The position numbers and the translations under genes were made by a program. The notes under the pieces are model-generated. The model did not search any database, was not told the origin of the DNA, and worked only from the letters and a program-made list of their open reading frames with translations. DNA of 17,261 bases, taken from NCBI GenBank assembly GCA_913009315.1, contig CAJVZA010000041.1, positions 1-17,261 on the forward strand, given 5' to 3'. Positions 1,873 through 17,030 of this stretch are shown here, piece by piece. This stretch comes from an uncultured Hippea sp. (GTDB lineage: Bacteria; Campylobacterota_A; Desulfurellia; JAADFJ01). The stretch's first letter is position 1, and each line of letters begins with the position of its first letter.

Positions 1873-3129
1873 TTATTTTTGCTGAGGCGTGAAAGGCATT
1901 AATGCCTTATTTATTAATTCAAGTGTATGCATAACAACAATATCTTGATCTTTTCTATACAGTCCTTCTGAAATCTGCATCATACATGCAGAACAGCCGG
2001 TAACAACAGTCGCCGCTCCGGTGTTTTTAATGTCCTCAATCTTTTTATCCATTATTTTTAATGACAGATTTCTCCAATCGATACTGAATGTTCCTCCGTT
2101 TCCGCAGCATCTCAGCGAATCGGACATTTCTATAATGTCTGCACCTGTCTTTTTTATAAGCTCTCTGGGTTCGGCTGTAACCTTTTGGGTTTTTGCAAGA
2201 TGGCATGGGTCATGATATGTTACGTTTGTATTGATGGAGTTTTTCATCAGTTTTTTCAGATTGCTGTTATGGTAAAGATAGAATACAGGATCATAAAATA
2301 GCTTTGACACCTTTTCCGCCTTTTTTCTGTATTCTTCGTCCTCTAAAAATGTAAAAAGTTTTGGATAGTCGTATTTTATCATTGATGCGCAGGTAGGTTC
2401 CGGAAGGAGTACCGGAAGATTCAGTTTTTCAAACAGATCAATGTTATGCCTGGCTAAATAAGCAGCCGTTTCGAAATCTCCTGCAAAATATGCCGGAGCT
2501 CCGCAGCAAAGCTGTTTTTTTGGCAGTGTGCTGCCGATATTGAGTTTTTTTAGAATATCAACAAGTGCATAGCCTACCGATTGGTATGAATAATTTACCA
2601 AACATGACATAAACAGCGCAACGTTGTTTTCTCCTTTTGTGGGGTTATCCGGAAGCGACTGAAGCAGTGACTTCTTATAGATTTTTGGAAAAAACCGGTT
2701 AATGAACGGAAACTCTTGTCCATTTTTTTTCTGTTTGGCTGCGACAGATACCGCTGCTCCTGCGGTTACCGTTAAATCAAGCTTTTTTCTATCCTTAAGA
2801 AGCCAAAAAAACAGCTTTTTGTAAAGCGGAAGACTGCTGTGCTCTAAAAGCATGTGTCTCGCCAATGTTACAATTGTATCGGTCGGAGCATCATTCGGGC
2901 AAATTTCTACACAACTCGTACATAAAATACATTTTCCGAAAAGCTCTTTTATTCTGCTGCCCTCAGGTTTTATGGTTTGATTTCTGAGCTCTTCTAAAAG
3001 TGAAAAATGTCCGCGGGCAACAAACGGCTCCCTCTGCTCTTCTGCAAATACCGGACAAATCCATCGGCATTTACCACATTTAACGCATTTTTCCAGTTCT
3101 TCCCTTATAAACTCATTTCCGTTCTTCAT
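1873..3129 (-). CDS. glcF: Glycolate/D-lactate oxidase iron-sulfur subunit (GlcF-like)
   Basis: 418-residue cytoplasmic Fe-S electron-transfer subunit that takes electrons from a GlcD-type flavoprotein and passes them toward the quinone pool. The N-terminus carries two 4Fe-4S ferredoxin motifs, C15-x2-C18-x2-C21-x3-C25 and C67-x2-C70-x2-C73-x3-C77, the second closing with CP. Two CCG (HdrB-like) cysteine domains follow. One is marked by QLCCGAPAYFAGD, the other by HDPCH, LRCCGNGG and a late GCSACM. This order and length match GlcF and related LutA/HdrD-type proteins. The ATG at 3129 has no obvious Shine-Dalgarno. glcD lies upstream on the same strand, but 229 bases separate the two genes, a wide gap for subunits of one enzyme. 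Substrate (glycolate, D-lactate or another 2-hydroxy acid) cannot be told from sequence alone. It is the last gene before the IS. Confidence 0.88.
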   Translation of the reverse strand: MKNGNEFIREELEKCVKCGKCRWICPVFAEEQREPFVARGHFSLLEELRNQTIKPEGSRIKELFGKCILCTSCVEICPNDAPTDTIVTLARHMLLEHSSLPLYKKLFFWLLKDRKKLDLTVTAGAAVSVAAKQKKNGQEFPFINRFFPKIYKKSLLQSLPDNPTKGENNVALFMSCLVNYSYQSVGYALVDILKKLNIGSTLPKKQLCCGAPAYFAGDFETAAYLARHNIDLFEKLNLPVLLPEPTCASMIKYDYPKLFTFLEDEEYRKKAEKVSKLFYDPVFYLYHNSNLKKLMKNSINTNVTYHDPCHLAKTQKVTAEPRELIKKTGADIIEMSDSLRCCGNGGTFSIDWRNLSLKIMDKKIEDIKNTGAATVVTGCSACMMQISEGLYRKDQDIVVMHTLELINKALMPFTPQQK

Positions 3130-3359
3130 GTTTTATGCTGCACGCAGACAGATCTCATCAAGACGTAAATTGCAGGCGGCAGTAAAGCGATTACTAAGAT
3201 TTACAATGCAGAGAGAGCTGATTTGATATTCAGGATACTCGTTCATAGATTAACAGAAGTGCTTATAAAAACAGACAGCGCCAATGGAGTCTTCTTTATC
3301 TTTCTGATTTTGACAGCACCTAATCGGAATCCTTTGACTGCGCTTCACTTTTGATCGTT
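3130..3359. other. Long spacer between glcD and glcF
   Basis: 229-230 bases lie between two genes normally tightly linked. I see no convincing promoter, terminator or RNA. A 37-codon ATG frame on the minus strand (3246-3133) lacks a Shine-Dalgarno and resembles nothing I know. The stretch may be the residue of a lost small gene or a processing region. Confidence 0.4.
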
Positions 3360-4730
3360 TCACAATCCTGTTTTTCCGGGATTTAAAATATTGTTTGGAT
3401 CAAAAGCACGTTTTATTAATTTCATAATATTAATTTCACTTTCTGTTTTTGCGAGTTTCAGAAATTTCTGTTTAGCCATTCCTATGCCATGTTCTCCTGA
3501 CAATGTACCGCCGAGTTCAACAACAGACTCAAAAATTTCATATACCGCACTCTCGGCCTTTTCTCGTTGACCGTTTTCATAAAGAACGTTCACATGAATA
3601 TTGCCGTCTCCGGCATGACCGAAGTTGACGATTGGCAGGCCGTATTTTTTACTTATATGATCGGTTTTTTCAACCATTTCATCAAGACGGTTGCGCGGAA
3701 CAACGATATCTTCGTTCATTTTATTCGGCCTTATATTTTTGAGAGAGGGTGATACGCTCCGCCTGGCTCGCCACAGAAAATCCTCTTCCGCTTTATCGGT
3801 TGCAACCTTGACTACTGCTCCTGCTTTAGTACGCAAAAGCTCTGAAATCTTTTTAGCTTCTGACGAGGCTTCTGTTTTTGAGCCGTCTGTCTGTATTACG
3901 AGTATGGCCTCCGTGCTTTTGCTGATACTTATATCGGTATATCTTTTTACGGCATTAACCGAATATTTATCCATAAATTCGATTGCTGTCGGCAGTATAT
4001 TGTTGTTTAAAATCAGGGGAACCGATGAGGCAGCTCCTGCAAGAGTTTTAAATTCTGCCAAAACCGTTGCAGTAGCCTGAGGCTTTGGAATTAGTTTGAT
4101 GATTATTTTCGTAATAAAAGCTAATGTTCCTTCAGATCCGATTAACAGTCCGGCAATGTTGTATCCTACTACATCCTTTATATTTCTTGAGCCGGCTCTG
4201 ATGAAATCTCCGTTTGGAAGAACAGCCTCCAACCCAAGTATATAATCTTTTGTGACGCCGTATTTTACCGCTCTCGGGCCTCCGGCATTTTCCGCAACAT
4301 TTCCTCCGAGCGTTGAGAATTGCCAGCTTGCCGGATCCGGGGGATAAAATAACCCTTTTTTTTCTACTTCCTGCTGAAACAGATAGTTTATTACTCCAGG
4401 CTCTACAACAGCGGTCAGATCCGTTGTGTCTATGGATTCAATTTTGTTCATAAGTTCAGTAGAGGCAACTATGCCGCCATTAGATGCAAGTGCTCCACCC
4501 GTAAAGCCGGATCCTGCACCTCTTGGTACAATCGGCATTTGTTCCTTTCCGGCCAGTTTAAAAAGTTCGCTGATCTGCTGTGCATTTTTTGGAAATACAA
4601 CAAAATCAGGCACAAAGCGCTTCTGTGTTGCGTCATAAGCATATTGTGTTCTGTCGATCAGTTCATTAAATACACCGGATTTCCCGAATATTCTGCAAAG
4701 TTTGCCGTAAATCTGCTTGTTGCTGTTCAT
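3360..4730 (-). CDS. glcD: FAD-linked 2-hydroxy-acid oxidase (GlcD-like)
   Basis: 456-residue FAD-dependent oxidase/dehydrogenase of the GlcD / D-lactate dehydrogenase (VAO/PCMH) family, oxidising a 2-hydroxy acid such as glycolate or D-lactate to the 2-oxo acid. The FAD PP-loop is seen at 69-80 (PRGAGSGFTGGA), followed by DPAS at 132-135 and LGGNVAENAGGP at 141-152, both typical of the FAD-binding half. The C-terminal cap has GHAGDGNIHVNV and later SGEHGIG, the usual substrate/cofactor-domain signatures. Length is normal. The ATG at 4730 is supported by AAGGAG six bases upstream. A hairpin and an 8-base palindrome precede that ribosome site. The zinc phospholipase-like gene is upstream and glcF downstream on the same strand, so the flavin and Fe-S subunits are encoded together. 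Family is certain; the substrate is not. Confidence 0.92.
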   Translation of the reverse strand: MNSNKQIYGKLCRIFGKSGVFNELIDRTQYAYDATQKRFVPDFVVFPKNAQQISELFKLAGKEQMPIVPRGAGSGFTGGALASNGGIVASTELMNKIESIDTTDLTAVVEPGVINYLFQQEVEKKGLFYPPDPASWQFSTLGGNVAENAGGPRAVKYGVTKDYILGLEAVLPNGDFIRAGSRNIKDVVGYNIAGLLIGSEGTLAFITKIIIKLIPKPQATATVLAEFKTLAGAASSVPLILNNNILPTAIEFMDKYSVNAVKRYTDISISKSTEAILVIQTDGSKTEASSEAKKISELLRTKAGAVVKVATDKAEEDFLWRARRSVSPSLKNIRPNKMNEDIVVPRNRLDEMVEKTDHISKKYGLPIVNFGHAGDGNIHVNVLYENGQREKAESAVYEIFESVVELGGTLSGEHGIGMAKQKFLKLAKTESEINIMKLIKRAFDPNNILNPGKTGL

Positions 4731-4814: not shown

Positions 4815-5585
4815 TTAGCGTGCAAGGTGATTTAGAAACCTATGTGAAGGCTTGCTTATTACCGCCGTTTTCGACAAAACCGCCGATCTATTTCCGTTTA
4901 TAAGAATATCTTTTGTAAAATCGATTGATAACGCAAGGTAGTTATAAAGCTCTTTTTTGCTGAACAGATTTCCGATTTCCGAGCTGTATTCATGCGAGGG
5001 GAACAGATTAACCGTTTGTCTGAATAGGAATTTAGATGTCGAAAAGGAAAATAGCGTGTCGTATAGACTATTTTTAAGCAGCTTGTCGAGGTCTGGATAT
5101 TTTTTGTTGATTACGGCTTTTGACAAAATGGTATATCTTGAGGGAAGCATAAGTTCTGCTTTAGACTCAATGATACTGTGAAGAATTTCAGAAGTAAAAC
5201 GATTTTTTTCCAGTTTAGGTCTTATAAAATACTGATGGGCAGCAACATCGGACGCTATATGTGAAAAATATCCGTAAACAAACGCCTTTTCCCGATTGCC
5301 GCGCGCCTTCTCCAAAAGTGAAAATGCTACAATCCAATTATGACAATGGTTTAGGGGATTGCAATATTTTTTCCCGATTGTTATATCAGGTGCTATGTTT
5401 CCATAAAAAAATGCATCTATATTTGCATAAAGCAATGCTGAAATCTTGCCGAGCTGCCCAAGATAATCGTTTATCAAATTACTTGCAACAAACAGATGAG
5501 CTGCACTTCCCCACGCTGCAGCATTCTGAGCATTAAAAAATATAAAAACTGCCAATACTATTCCGATAATCACACTACCCGCCAT
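4815..5585 (-). CDS. Exported zinc-dependent phospholipase C-like protein
   Basis: 256 residues with a hydrophobic N-terminal signal segment (about 5-19) and a probable cleavage after the Ala-rich NAAA, leaving W25 as first mature residue. In Bacillus cereus phospholipase C the N-terminal Trp of the mature enzyme itself binds zinc. A matching ligand set can be read here: W25, H30, D67 (GNIAPD), H82 (CHNW), H109 and D113 (YFSHIASD), H117, H136 and E140 (HSIIE). The HxxxD and HxxxE spacings match the three-zinc site of the PF00882 family. Its likely role is a secreted hydrolase acting on phospholipid or another phosphodiester, but many bacterial members are uncharacterised. The C-terminal third (about 150-256) has no feature I recognise. 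No good Shine-Dalgarno precedes the ATG at 5585. It lies 58 bases after serA and 84 before glcD. Confidence 0.75.
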   Translation of the reverse strand: MAGSVIIGIVLAVFIFFNAQNAAAWGSAAHLFVASNLINDYLGQLGKISALLYANIDAFFYGNIAPDITIGKKYCNPLNHCHNWIVAFSLLEKARGNREKAFVYGYFSHIASDVAAHQYFIRPKLEKNRFTSEILHSIIESKAELMLPSRYTILSKAVINKKYPDLDKLLKNSLYDTLFSFSTSKFLFRQTVNLFPSHEYSSEIGNLFSKKELYNYLALSIDFTKDILINGNRSAVLSKTAVISKPSHRFLNHLAR

Positions 5586-13877: not shown

Positions 13878-15113
13878 CTAAATCGTTTTTAAATGCCGGT
13901 GAACCTTTTTAAAGTTTACGGCAAATGCCCCTATGCTGAAAATAGCGGTTGCGGAGCCGATAATAATAGGAGCGGTGGTTTGCGCTATTAGACCAATAGA
14001 CACTAAAGCAATAGCTATATACCAACTGACTTCTTGATATCGCATAATTTTAGAGTCCAGCATATCGGCAAGCATAGGCACCTTTTCTTTTCCTATCAGA
14101 CTGCCATACCTGTGAAACCAGACCAGAAACGGAAAAATCTTGTAAAGTTGACCAAAGATTAAAGTACCGCAGAATCCGATAAAAAAGAGAAAACCGGCAA
14201 GCTGCCAACTCAAACCCGCAACTTTTGTTATAATCGCAGCTGCAAAGAAGAGAAATGCCGCCCTTGATGCTGAAAGAGGAATGTCAAGTCTCCTTCTCAT
14301 TCTTTTTTGATAAATCATTAAAACTTGATAGATGATTAAAACGGACGACACGATAAACAAAGATATTTCAAAAAAAACAGGTATATTGATTTTCAAAAGT
14401 TTACCGGCAACCGGCAGCCAGATAACTGCCAGCAGCAATACGGCACCTATTTTAGACGGAATCGTATTATAACCTCTGCTCAATAAGAACATTGGAAATA
14501 ACTCAAGCAATGCGCCGATAATTATAAATAAAAGCCATCCTACAGCGGCGAAATCGATATGAAAAAACAGGAGATCTTTGAAGCTGATACCAATGTTGTG
14601 ATTAAGCGAAGCTATCAAAAAATTTGCAGTAATAGCTGCGAGAACAAAATGAATAATACCGAGCACAATAAAAACGCCATTAATTTTCCAGCGTTTTATT
14701 CTAAACAGACTGATACCGATATTTACGGCAAACAATATTACTGCAAGCGTTAAAATCTCAACAAATACAGTGACCATTTTGAAATTTCCGAAGAAAAATG
14801 AGGCAATAATACCTATTGTGCCGATCAGATAGATCCAGAATTGTAATCTTGCGAGAGGATAACTGTAGATTCTGACCTCAAGAATGACAGGCGTCATCTG
14901 ATAAAGAGCGCCTATCATTACCATTGAAATAAATCCAAGTGTTGCAAAGTGAGTAGCAGCTGCGGTTCTAAACGATACGGAACCCCCAAGTATGATAGAG
15001 GGTTCCGATATCAGCAAAACAAACAACAGTGCAAGCATTAAAGCGGCAGCTATGAAATAGCGTTCAACTATGTCAAGCGGCGGCGCAAATTCTGTGGATA
15101 AATCTCCGCTCAT
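13878..15113 (-). CDS. Polytopic heme-copper-oxidase/NnrS-like membrane protein
   Basis: 411 very hydrophobic residues with about 12 predicted membrane helices by eye. Histidines sit in or beside helices: H55 (ATHFATLGF), H155 (GIIHFVLA), H185 (FFHIDFAAVGW) and H334 (FLVWFHRYG). The block THFATLGFISMVMIGALYQMTPVI and its echo HIDFAAVGWLLFIIIGALLELFPM recall the heme-binding helices of heme-copper oxidase subunit I and NnrS-type proteins. I see no copper-ligand cluster like that of a true cytochrome oxidase (no HH pair), so it is unlikely to be a complete terminal oxidase. A heme-binding or NO-related role is an inference. Its ATG overlaps the stop of the DUF2249 gene (ATGA at 15113-15110), so the two are translated together. 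Family assignment is moderate, exact function unknown. Confidence 0.6.
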   Translation of the reverse strand: MSGDLSTEFAPPLDIVERYFIAAALMLALLFVLLISEPSIILGGSVSFRTAAATHFATLGFISMVMIGALYQMTPVILEVRIYSYPLARLQFWIYLIGTIGIIASFFFGNFKMVTVFVEILTLAVILFAVNIGISLFRIKRWKINGVFIVLGIIHFVLAAITANFLIASLNHNIGISFKDLLFFHIDFAAVGWLLFIIIGALLELFPMFLLSRGYNTIPSKIGAVLLLAVIWLPVAGKLLKINIPVFFEISLFIVSSVLIIYQVLMIYQKRMRRRLDIPLSASRAAFLFFAAAIITKVAGLSWQLAGFLFFIGFCGTLIFGQLYKIFPFLVWFHRYGSLIGKEKVPMLADMLDSKIMRYQEVSWYIAIALVSIGLIAQTTAPIIIGSATAIFSIGAFAVNFKKVHRHLKTI

Positions 15114-15880
15114 TTGTGAATTTTTAGTATTATATGATCGTCTGACACTTGGTTGGTTTCAACAACGTATCCATGCTCTTCGAGCCGGGGATAAAGATGT
15201 TTGGGTCTTTTGAAATGATGAACCGTCAAAACTTCTCCTTTGGGAAGTGTTTCAAGCGCTTCAAAGATTTTTACCATCGGTTGAGGCGGCTCCAGTCCTC
15301 TGACATCAATCGTATGATTATTCGGCTGTTCTTCCTGATGCGGTTTGAATATGCTGCCGCTCTCCGGAGACTGCTGTTTGATGCCTGTGTTGAAAAAATA
15401 GATATGCCAAATACCTTCTTTTTCTTCGGAATAATGGTCAAAGCCTTTTCTTTCCAACACGGAATATAGCGGAGCGGGCTCGAAAATATTAATAAGATGC
15501 AGGATATTTCCTCCGATTCCTGAAATTGCCTTCATGATTGCACCAAACGGATCCCTGCCATGCGCTATATCGTCTCTTACATCAAGATCGATTATATCGG
15601 CCTTATCTATCCAGTCCGGCTTTTCTTTTGAAGTCGCTTTTGGAGCAAGTTCAGGATGTGCCGACAAAAATAACGGCAGAGTTCCGTTTTTCTCATTCAT
15701 TACCAACAGAAGATCCGGTGTTTCCACATCAAGAAGATCGGCTAACTCGGCAATCGTTGGATTCTTATCAAAATCAATCGAAACATTCTTTGATTCTGCT
15801 ATCTCAATAAGCGTAGATTTTGTAGTCCCGTTATCTATAAAATCTGCCAAATGACTGTTTTTATTCAAAAAATCACCCAT
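15110..15880 (-). CDS. Tandem DUF2249 (TusA-like) protein
   Basis: 256-residue soluble protein with three parts. An N-terminal helical segment (about 8-65, including PTIAELADLLDVETPDLL) resembles DUF1858/ScdA-N-like domains. A first DUF2249 domain spans about 95-163 (IIDLDVRDDIAHGRDPF ... GIWHIYFF). A second spans about 189-255 (TIDVRGLEPPQPM ... HIILKIHK). DUF2249 shares the TusA/SirA fold, but where TusA has a catalytic Cys in its CPxP motif, the second copy has EPPQP, so sulfur-carrier chemistry like TusA is not expected. DUF2249 genes are often found near NO, hemerythrin and denitrification genes, which fits the membrane protein that follows and overlaps it. A good GGAGGT precedes the ATG and overlaps the ald stop. 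The function is unknown. A regulatory or metal/heme-handling partner of the membrane protein is my inference. Confidence 0.72.
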   Translation of the reverse strand: MGDFLNKNSHLADFIDNGTTKSTLIEIAESKNVSIDFDKNPTIAELADLLDVETPDLLLVMNEKNGTLPLFLSAHPELAPKATSKEKPDWIDKADIIDLDVRDDIAHGRDPFGAIMKAISGIGGNILHLINIFEPAPLYSVLERKGFDHYSEEKEGIWHIYFFNTGIKQQSPESGSIFKPHQEEQPNNHTIDVRGLEPPQPMVKIFEALETLPKGEVLTVHHFKRPKHLYPRLEEHGYVVETNQVSDDHIILKIHK

Positions 15881-15889
15881 ATTTACCTC

Positions 15890-16984
15890 CTAAATTATAT
15901 CATATAGGTAAACATAAGGTAGATTTAGTGATTTGGCAACCTCAGAATGAGTTATTTTTCCGTCGTGAATATTGAGTCCCGCCATAAGTCCTTCATCATC
16001 TTGCAAACTTTTTTTCCAACCGTCTGCAATTTTTATTATATAGTCGTAAGTTGCATTAGAAAGCGCCTCTGTCGCGGTTGCGGCATAAGCGGCAGGCATA
16101 TTTGTAACGCAATATTGAGTTACTCCTCCGGTTTTAAATACAGGATTGAGATGAGTGGTGGGGCGTGATGTTTCGGTGCAGCCTCCCTGATCAATCGCAA
16201 CATCAACAATCACTGAACCCTCTTTCATATCCATTATCATTTCTTTTGTAATAATCTTTGGTGCCGAACCTCCCGGAACAAGTACTGCCCCTACAACAAG
16301 ATCAGACAGTTTTGCTGCATTTGCTACTGCCAGCGGATGAGCATAAATCGTTTTTAATCCAAATTCTTCCATTGTCTTGAGCTTATCGGTGTCTATATCG
16401 GCTATTGTGACATCTGCGCCGACACCTTTGGCAACAAGGGCGGCATTTTGTCCTACAACTCCGGCTCCTATAACAAGCACCTTTGCCGGAAGTACTCCCG
16501 GAACACCGGATGGCAAAACTCCATTCCCTCCAAACGGCTCGGAAAGATAAAAAAATCCAACGAGCGATGCTATTTTGCCGGCAATTTCGCTCATTGGAGC
16601 TAACAGCGGCAGCTTGCCGTCTTTAACAACCGTCTCATACGCAAAGGCTGTTATGCCGGAAGATAGAAGTGCTTCTGCCAATTTTTTCGATGATGCAAGA
16701 TGAAGATAGGTAAAAAGCAGCTTGCCTTTTTTGAAATATTTAAATTCCGACTCCATAGGTTCTTTTACCTTGACAACCATGTCGGCATTCCATGCCTCGT
16801 CTGCAGTTTTTACAATCCCGGCACCGGCCGCTCTGTATTGTTTATCGGCAAAAAAGCTGCCCTCTCCTGCGCCTGATTCAACGATCACCTGATGACCCGC
16901 TCTAACAATCTGGTTAACTGAATACGGTGTAATGCTTACTCTCTTTTCAGATTCCTTGATCTCTTTCGGAACTCCAATCAACAT
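15890..16984 (-). CDS. ald: Alanine dehydrogenase
   Basis: 364-residue NAD-dependent enzyme interconverting L-alanine with pyruvate and ammonium, cytoplasmic and usually hexameric. The N-terminus MLIGVPKEIKESEKRVSITP is characteristic, with substrate-binding R15. The catalytic pair is K74 (VKVKEP) and H95 (TYLHLA). The nucleotide site is GAGVVG (173-178), preceded by the family loop FGGNGVLPSGVPGVLPAKV. The later GSVIVDVAIDQGGC block carries the active-site Asp (D265). Length is close to the usual 370. The ATG at 16984 has GGAGGT upstream. It appears to head an operon with the DUF2249 and membrane-protein genes, ending only nine bases before the next ATG, inside that gene's ribosome site. It could be tied to pyruvate/ammonia balance and redox state. 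A perfect inverted repeat just upstream suggests regulation. Confidence 0.95.
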   Translation of the reverse strand: MLIGVPKEIKESEKRVSITPYSVNQIVRAGHQVIVESGAGEGSFFADKQYRAAGAGIVKTADEAWNADMVVKVKEPMESEFKYFKKGKLLFTYLHLASSKKLAEALLSSGITAFAYETVVKDGKLPLLAPMSEIAGKIASLVGFFYLSEPFGGNGVLPSGVPGVLPAKVLVIGAGVVGQNAALVAKGVGADVTIADIDTDKLKTMEEFGLKTIYAHPLAVANAAKLSDLVVGAVLVPGGSAPKIITKEMIMDMKEGSVIVDVAIDQGGCTETSRPTTHLNPVFKTGGVTQYCVTNMPAAYAATATEALSNATYDYIIKIADGWKKSLQDDEGLMAGLNIHDGKITHSEVAKSLNLPYVYLYDII

Positions 16985-16999
16985 AATCTACCTCCGATG

Positions 17000-17030
17000 T
17001 TTTATTAAACTATAGCTAAGTTTAATAAAA
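17000..17030. promoter_or_regulatory. Perfect 12-base inverted repeat before ald
   Basis: TTTTATTAAACT (17000-17011) and AGTTTAATAAAA (17019-17030) are exact reverse complements around a seven-base centre. The element ends 15 bases upstream of the ald ATG, next to its GGAGGT. A possible -10 (TATAGT on the minus strand, 17014-17009) lies inside. It could be an operator, for example of an Lrp- or FNR/CRP-size regulator, or an mRNA hairpin. The regulator cannot be named. Confidence 0.45.

Follow-up and report, generated by a model that had tools for sequence, protein, structure and literature searches.

The window analysed here, a stretch of 17,261 nucleotides from an uncultured Hippea sp., carries two overlapping genes that form a real, conserved two-gene module, of a kind that is already known and under-described. 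One gene encodes a soluble homologue of Thermus DrpB, and the other a membrane protein with the predicted fold of NOR and the heme-copper oxidases. The features on which the argument rests are the following.

15890..16984 (-): ald, alanine dehydrogenase (Pfam AlaDh_PNT_N/C), in an order that matches both genus relatives
15885..15891 (-): AGGAGGT ribosome-binding site of the drpB-like gene, read from the sequence
15110..15880 (-): drpB-like gene, 256 aa, with a helical N-terminus, two DUF2249 (TusA-fold) domains and no Cys (from the ORF, Pfam, DrpB homology and the model)
15395..15586 (-): first DUF2249 domain (PF10006, E 1.8e-10)
15113..15313 (-): second DUF2249 domain (PF10006, E 6.4e-18), in which EPPQPM replaces the TusA CPxP motif in the alignment
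15110..15113 (-): ATGA stop/start overlap of the drpB-like and membrane-protein genes, 4 bases, kept in L008 and L009
13878..15113 (-): membrane-protein gene, 411 aa, 12 predicted helices, putative three-unit heme-copper-oxidase/NOR fold of the HCOH type (from COX1 similarity, repeats and the NOR structural match)
14949..14951 (-): codon of H55 (TM2), invariant, aligning to the TM2 heme-b histidine of NorB
14559..14561 (-): codon of H185 (TM6), invariant, at the place in repeat 2 equivalent to that of H55 in repeat 1

The genus is represented by three genomes, namely the window's own (G000) and two relatives (L008/G001 and L009/G002), and all three share the ald - DUF2249 - membrane gene order, the overlap and a short gap, the end of ald lying 9 bases before the drpB-like start codon in the window and 8-9 bases in the relatives. 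The sequence-only reading had described both ORFs, their ATGA overlap and their position after ald correctly, and it had named loss of joint conservation as one outcome that would speak against it; the pair is in fact conserved together in all three genus genomes. The membrane protein is 95% identical to that of L008/G001 and 72% identical to that of L009/G002. When compared with these two relatives (NG86), the dN/dS of the drpB-like gene is about 0.14 and about 0.08, and that of the membrane gene about 0.11 and about 0.14, similar to the values of ald (0.10 and 0.10). Such low ratios indicate constrained proteins under purifying selection and not chance ORFs.

It is probable that ald is the first gene of one transcription unit with the pair. 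Just upstream of ald, at window positions 17003-17028 (-), there is an inverted repeat, TATTAAACT-N7-AGTTTAATA, which G001 has unchanged and G002 in part, and which is a possible operator for the unit. FNR-type palindromes were found neither within the pair nor upstream of ald, and the window's two matches are no more than chance would give. Elsewhere in the window, an Fe-S/CCG-domain protein adjoins an FAD-linked oxidase as a GlcD/GlcF-like pair (1873-4730, -), and a protein with a zinc-dependent phospholipase C-type domain (PF00882) is encoded at 4815-5585 (-).

The two TusA-fold DUF2249 domains proposed for the soluble protein are well supported by Pfam, since PF10006 matches it in two stretches with an E of 2e-29 and 101.6 bits against a curated cut-off of 29.5; the TusA family itself is found once. 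The AF2 model, built from three sequences, has a mean pLDDT of 60, with about 75-86 in the C-terminal domain, and displays the TusA topology twice; its Foldseek matches are SirA/TusA/YeeD structures, the YeeE-YeeD thiosulfate complex included. The second domain was rightly said to lack the TusA cysteine, and the whole 256-aa protein is in fact free of cysteine, which excludes TusA sulfurtransferase chemistry for it even though the fold is common to both.

The best plasmid matches to the drpB-like protein (tblastn) are Thermus DUF2249 proteins. Downstream of nar, Thermus has a 72-aa DUF2249 gene and, right behind it, a 273-aa gene whose size, overlap and position agree with those of the DrpB of Chahlafi et al. 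(PMC6282519). The window protein and Thermus DrpB are 30% identical over 251 columns (residues 24-256), and both have a tandem DUF2249 behind a helical N-terminal region. Thermus DrpB also carries a Pfam DUF1858 domain, and the DUF1858-like N-terminus that had been suspected in the window protein is supported only indirectly, in that part of this region aligns to the DUF1858-scoring part of DrpB; Pfam itself gives no DUF1858 match there at E 1. The Thermus study describes DrpB as a membrane-associated factor of nitrate respiration, reports that nitrate control of nar and dnr expression is lost in drp mutants, and finds the nar and dnr promoters constitutive upon DrpB loss (PMC6282519). Given these published mutants of a homologue, the pair is less undescribed than the sequence-only reading had supposed, although systems of its kind are still under-described.

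The membrane protein is itself 30% identical, over 327 columns, to THTHE16_RS11155 of the Thermus nar/drp cluster, the order of which is nar genes, a DrpA-sized DUF2249 gene, drpB, a one-unit COX1-like gene, a protoglobin gene, the HCOH gene and DUF59. In Thermus the drpB and HCOH genes are thus separated by two genes, whereas in the window they overlap and sit after ald; nar is present in both organisms, but in the window's genome it is on another contig. The two intervening genes, on plasmid pTHTHE1601, encode a 144-aa protein matching one COX1 unit (L011:10527-10958) and a protein with protoglobin and weak ThiS matches (L011:10964-11800); we found no discussion of either protein in the available parts of the DrpA/DrpB papers.

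Pfam COX1 matches the window's membrane protein weakly (E 1e-4, below the cut-off) and is matched by five of the 11 members of its family, with a best E of 1.4e-13. The protein consists of three homologous units, for which unit-unit profile comparisons gave E values of 6e-9, 7e-9 and 2e-5. Its AF2 model, of low confidence (pLDDT 54, pTM 0.52), has 12 long helices, and the top six Foldseek matches are all cbb3 oxidase, NOR or cytochrome c oxidase. Structural alignment of this low-confidence model to NOR gave a Z of 25.0 (356 residues, 3.8 A), which is well above the helical-bundle background given by the alignment tool, and a Z of 23.8 was obtained with the cbb3 oxidase CcoN. A NOR/heme-copper-oxidase fold is therefore predicted, and the 'heme-copper' half of the label 'heme-copper/NnrS-like' is retained. 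The NnrS half (PF05940) is rejected, since none of the 11 members has a Pfam match and the hhalign probability, against a shallow two-sequence NnrS alignment, is 1.7%; a search of the genomes for NnrS gave zero matches, controls included, and is uninformative.

Catalytic heme-copper oxidases and NOR have six metal-ligand histidines (TM2, TM6, two in TM7 and two in TM10), and the TM2 histidine of NorB is a heme-b ligand in the established NOR structure. Eleven homologues were aligned, drawn from the genus and its class and from Aliarcobacter, Thermus, alphaproteobacteria and haloarchaea; H55 and H185 are the only invariant histidines (11/11), and the TM7 and TM10 ligands have no conserved counterpart among these sequences. 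The window protein thus shares with NorB and CcoN the predicted fold and the TM2 histidine, but it is without four of the six metal ligands and hence without an FeB/CuB catalytic metal site, in line with the earlier remark that no copper site was apparent. Two of the four heme ligands that had been put forward, H55 and H185, stand, and they probably hold one b-type heme; the sibling L009 has a Y in place of H155, and Aliarcobacter and the alphaproteobacteria have other residues in place of H334, so that both are rejected. Three-unit HCOH proteins, as described by Pei et al. 2014, reportedly have 12 helices, three repeats, two conserved histidines and a denitrification-linked context. Judged by these features, the window protein fits that group, having likewise three four-helix units and two conserved histidines, although it sits in a genome where NOR was not found. 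In the literature consulted, we found no report of heme binding, interaction or phenotype for any membrane homologue.

A single-sequence search of genome contigs gave only the two genus relatives, and viral contigs gave none; the distant relatives were taken from a plasmid collection, and the survey is accordingly skewed towards plasmid-borne loci. These plasmid relatives adjoin DUF2249 and Fe-S-assembly genes in alphaproteobacteria and Thermus, and partly in haloarchaea and Aliarcobacter, and many lie near nor, nirK, nnrS or nar, so that the proposed link with NO and denitrification neighbourhoods is borne out. On Ensifer, Shinella and R. phaseoli plasmids a single DUF2249, the HCOH gene, a tandem DUF2249 and DUF59 are consecutive, with nor, hemN, nnrS, nirK and Crp/Fnr genes alongside. 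The HCOH-DUF2249-DUF59 triplet adjoins nnrS and nirK in Gemmobacter, and in Paracoccus it occurs with Crp/Fnr and pseudoazurin genes, nor genes being some kilobases further. In this alphaproteobacterial cassette (Ensifer, Shinella, Rhizobium, Paracoccus and Gemmobacter) the homologous pair is adjacent and its frames mostly overlap or abut, as in the window; however, the membrane gene comes first, the DUF2249 protein is shorter and has no N-terminal extension, a DUF59 gene is added, and nor/nir genes are close by. Mesorhizobium has the pair flanked by nnrS and nos genes, without DUF59, and Aliarcobacter has a single DUF2249, HCOH and DUF59. Among haloarchaea, three DUF2249 genes and nirK lie within a few kilobases of the HCOH gene in Haloprofundus, and a DUF2249 gene lies about 1.4 kb from it in Halobaculum. 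Near the HCOH gene of Haloferax larsenii there is no annotated DUF2249, and G012, from the same class as the window's genome, has an HCOH gene and zero DUF2249 matches in its genome; the membrane protein would therefore be able to work without a DUF2249 partner.

The window's genome is 87.6% complete, and gene absences reported for it are the outcome of family searches in an incomplete genome. Its contig 59 (L046:3418-11690, G000:C59) carries a cytochrome c gene, narG (1447 bits, over the cut-off), three genes in narHJI positions and an MFS transporter, in a gene order that resembles the Thermus nar operon. On contig 5 (L018:6997-7937, G000:C5) a single-domain DUF2249 gene overlaps a RIC/ScdA gene (DUF542 and hemerythrin), which comes second; multiheme c-type cytochrome genes lie 1-5 kb beyond. 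Searches of this genome found no other COX1-family match (NOR or other heme-copper oxidase), no NrfA over the cut-off and no Hcp. In a 25-genome phylum set, RIC is restricted to the three genomes bearing the pair, and Hcp shows the reverse, occurring in none of the three genus genomes and in 18 of the 22 others. Since this pattern probably reflects one evolutionary event it is no more than suggestive, and possibly the RIC or the Hcp system replaced the other. G002 has both the pair and RIC, and no narG over the cut-off.

The reading that we favour, tentatively and at a little less than even weight, is a two-gene accessory module for nitrate/NO physiology. The membrane protein would be a non-catalytic cousin of the NOR/heme-copper-oxidase core, made of three repeated four-helix units and holding one heme between TM2 and TM6; the cysteine-free DrpB homologue would dock at its cytoplasmic face, and both would act as sensors of the membrane's redox or NO state, leading to an adjustment of nitrate-respiration or NO-stress functions. 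This reading is based on the pairing, the fold class, the conserved histidines, the four missing NOR ligands, the DrpB homology and the nitrate/NO context of the relatives and of the window's genome; against it stand the low confidence of the membrane model, the presence of the pair in G002 without narG over the cut-off, the occurrence of the membrane gene in G012 and Haloferax larsenii with no DUF2249 gene beside it, and the location of the window's nar genes on another contig. A sensor output is favoured, with cofactor maturation as a close rival. The pair could plausibly, if with less weight, serve the heme or Fe-S cofactors of nitrate reductase or of further NO-sensitive enzymes, by assisting in their insertion, delivery or repair, as suggested by the Thermus drpAB double mutant, which has about one tenth of the nitrate reductase activity at normal NarG amounts (PMC6282519). 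In Thermus, Aliarcobacter and most alphaproteobacterial loci, the next gene after the pair is one for Fe-S assembly (DUF59), hemN is close by in rhizobial loci, and the RIC iron-centre-repair gene stands behind the single DUF2249 gene in the window's genome. However, no DUF59 gene adjoins the window pair, the two DUF59-type domains of the genome being in NifU-like and ApbC-like proteins away from it, and no heme-handling motif was found.

The membrane protein could itself be a diverged NOR, with NO or another small molecule as the compound that it reduces or detoxifies, given its fold and the failure to find any other NOR or heme-copper oxidase in this genome. NO reduction is nevertheless improbable, as the protein has no FeB site and relatives share their locus with a true norB. 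Least credible by far is a sulfur relay, in which the DUF2249 protein would carry sulfur in the manner of TusA and be coupled to a transporter in the membrane: the TusA fold and the YeeE-YeeD match would agree with it, but the soluble protein has no cysteine, the sole cysteine of the membrane protein is not conserved across its family, and the membrane fold is that of NOR and not of YeeE.

In many bacteria and archaea, genes for DUF2249 proteins are found together with those for denitrification. We take COG4309 to be the same family as DUF2249 under another numbering. COG4309 has been tied to nor regulons (PMC1274295). The accessory module occurs in a genome that yielded no NOR, no other heme-copper oxidase and no Hcp in the searches, which speaks against a task confined to NOR assembly and points to a broader nitrate/NO-stress function. 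The DrpA/DrpB work did not settle the manner of DrpB's membrane association or the route by which a signal crosses the membrane. If, as seems rather doubtful, the pair were a membrane receptor descended from NOR, whose degenerate one-heme core responds to NO, nitrite or the redox state of quinones and passes the signal on via the DrpB-type protein, then Thermus DrpB and the DUF2249 proteins linked to nor/nir would have in it the membrane partner that has so far been missing. The NOR-fold protein that recurs as their neighbour offers a concrete candidate membrane partner for DrpB-type DUF2249 proteins.
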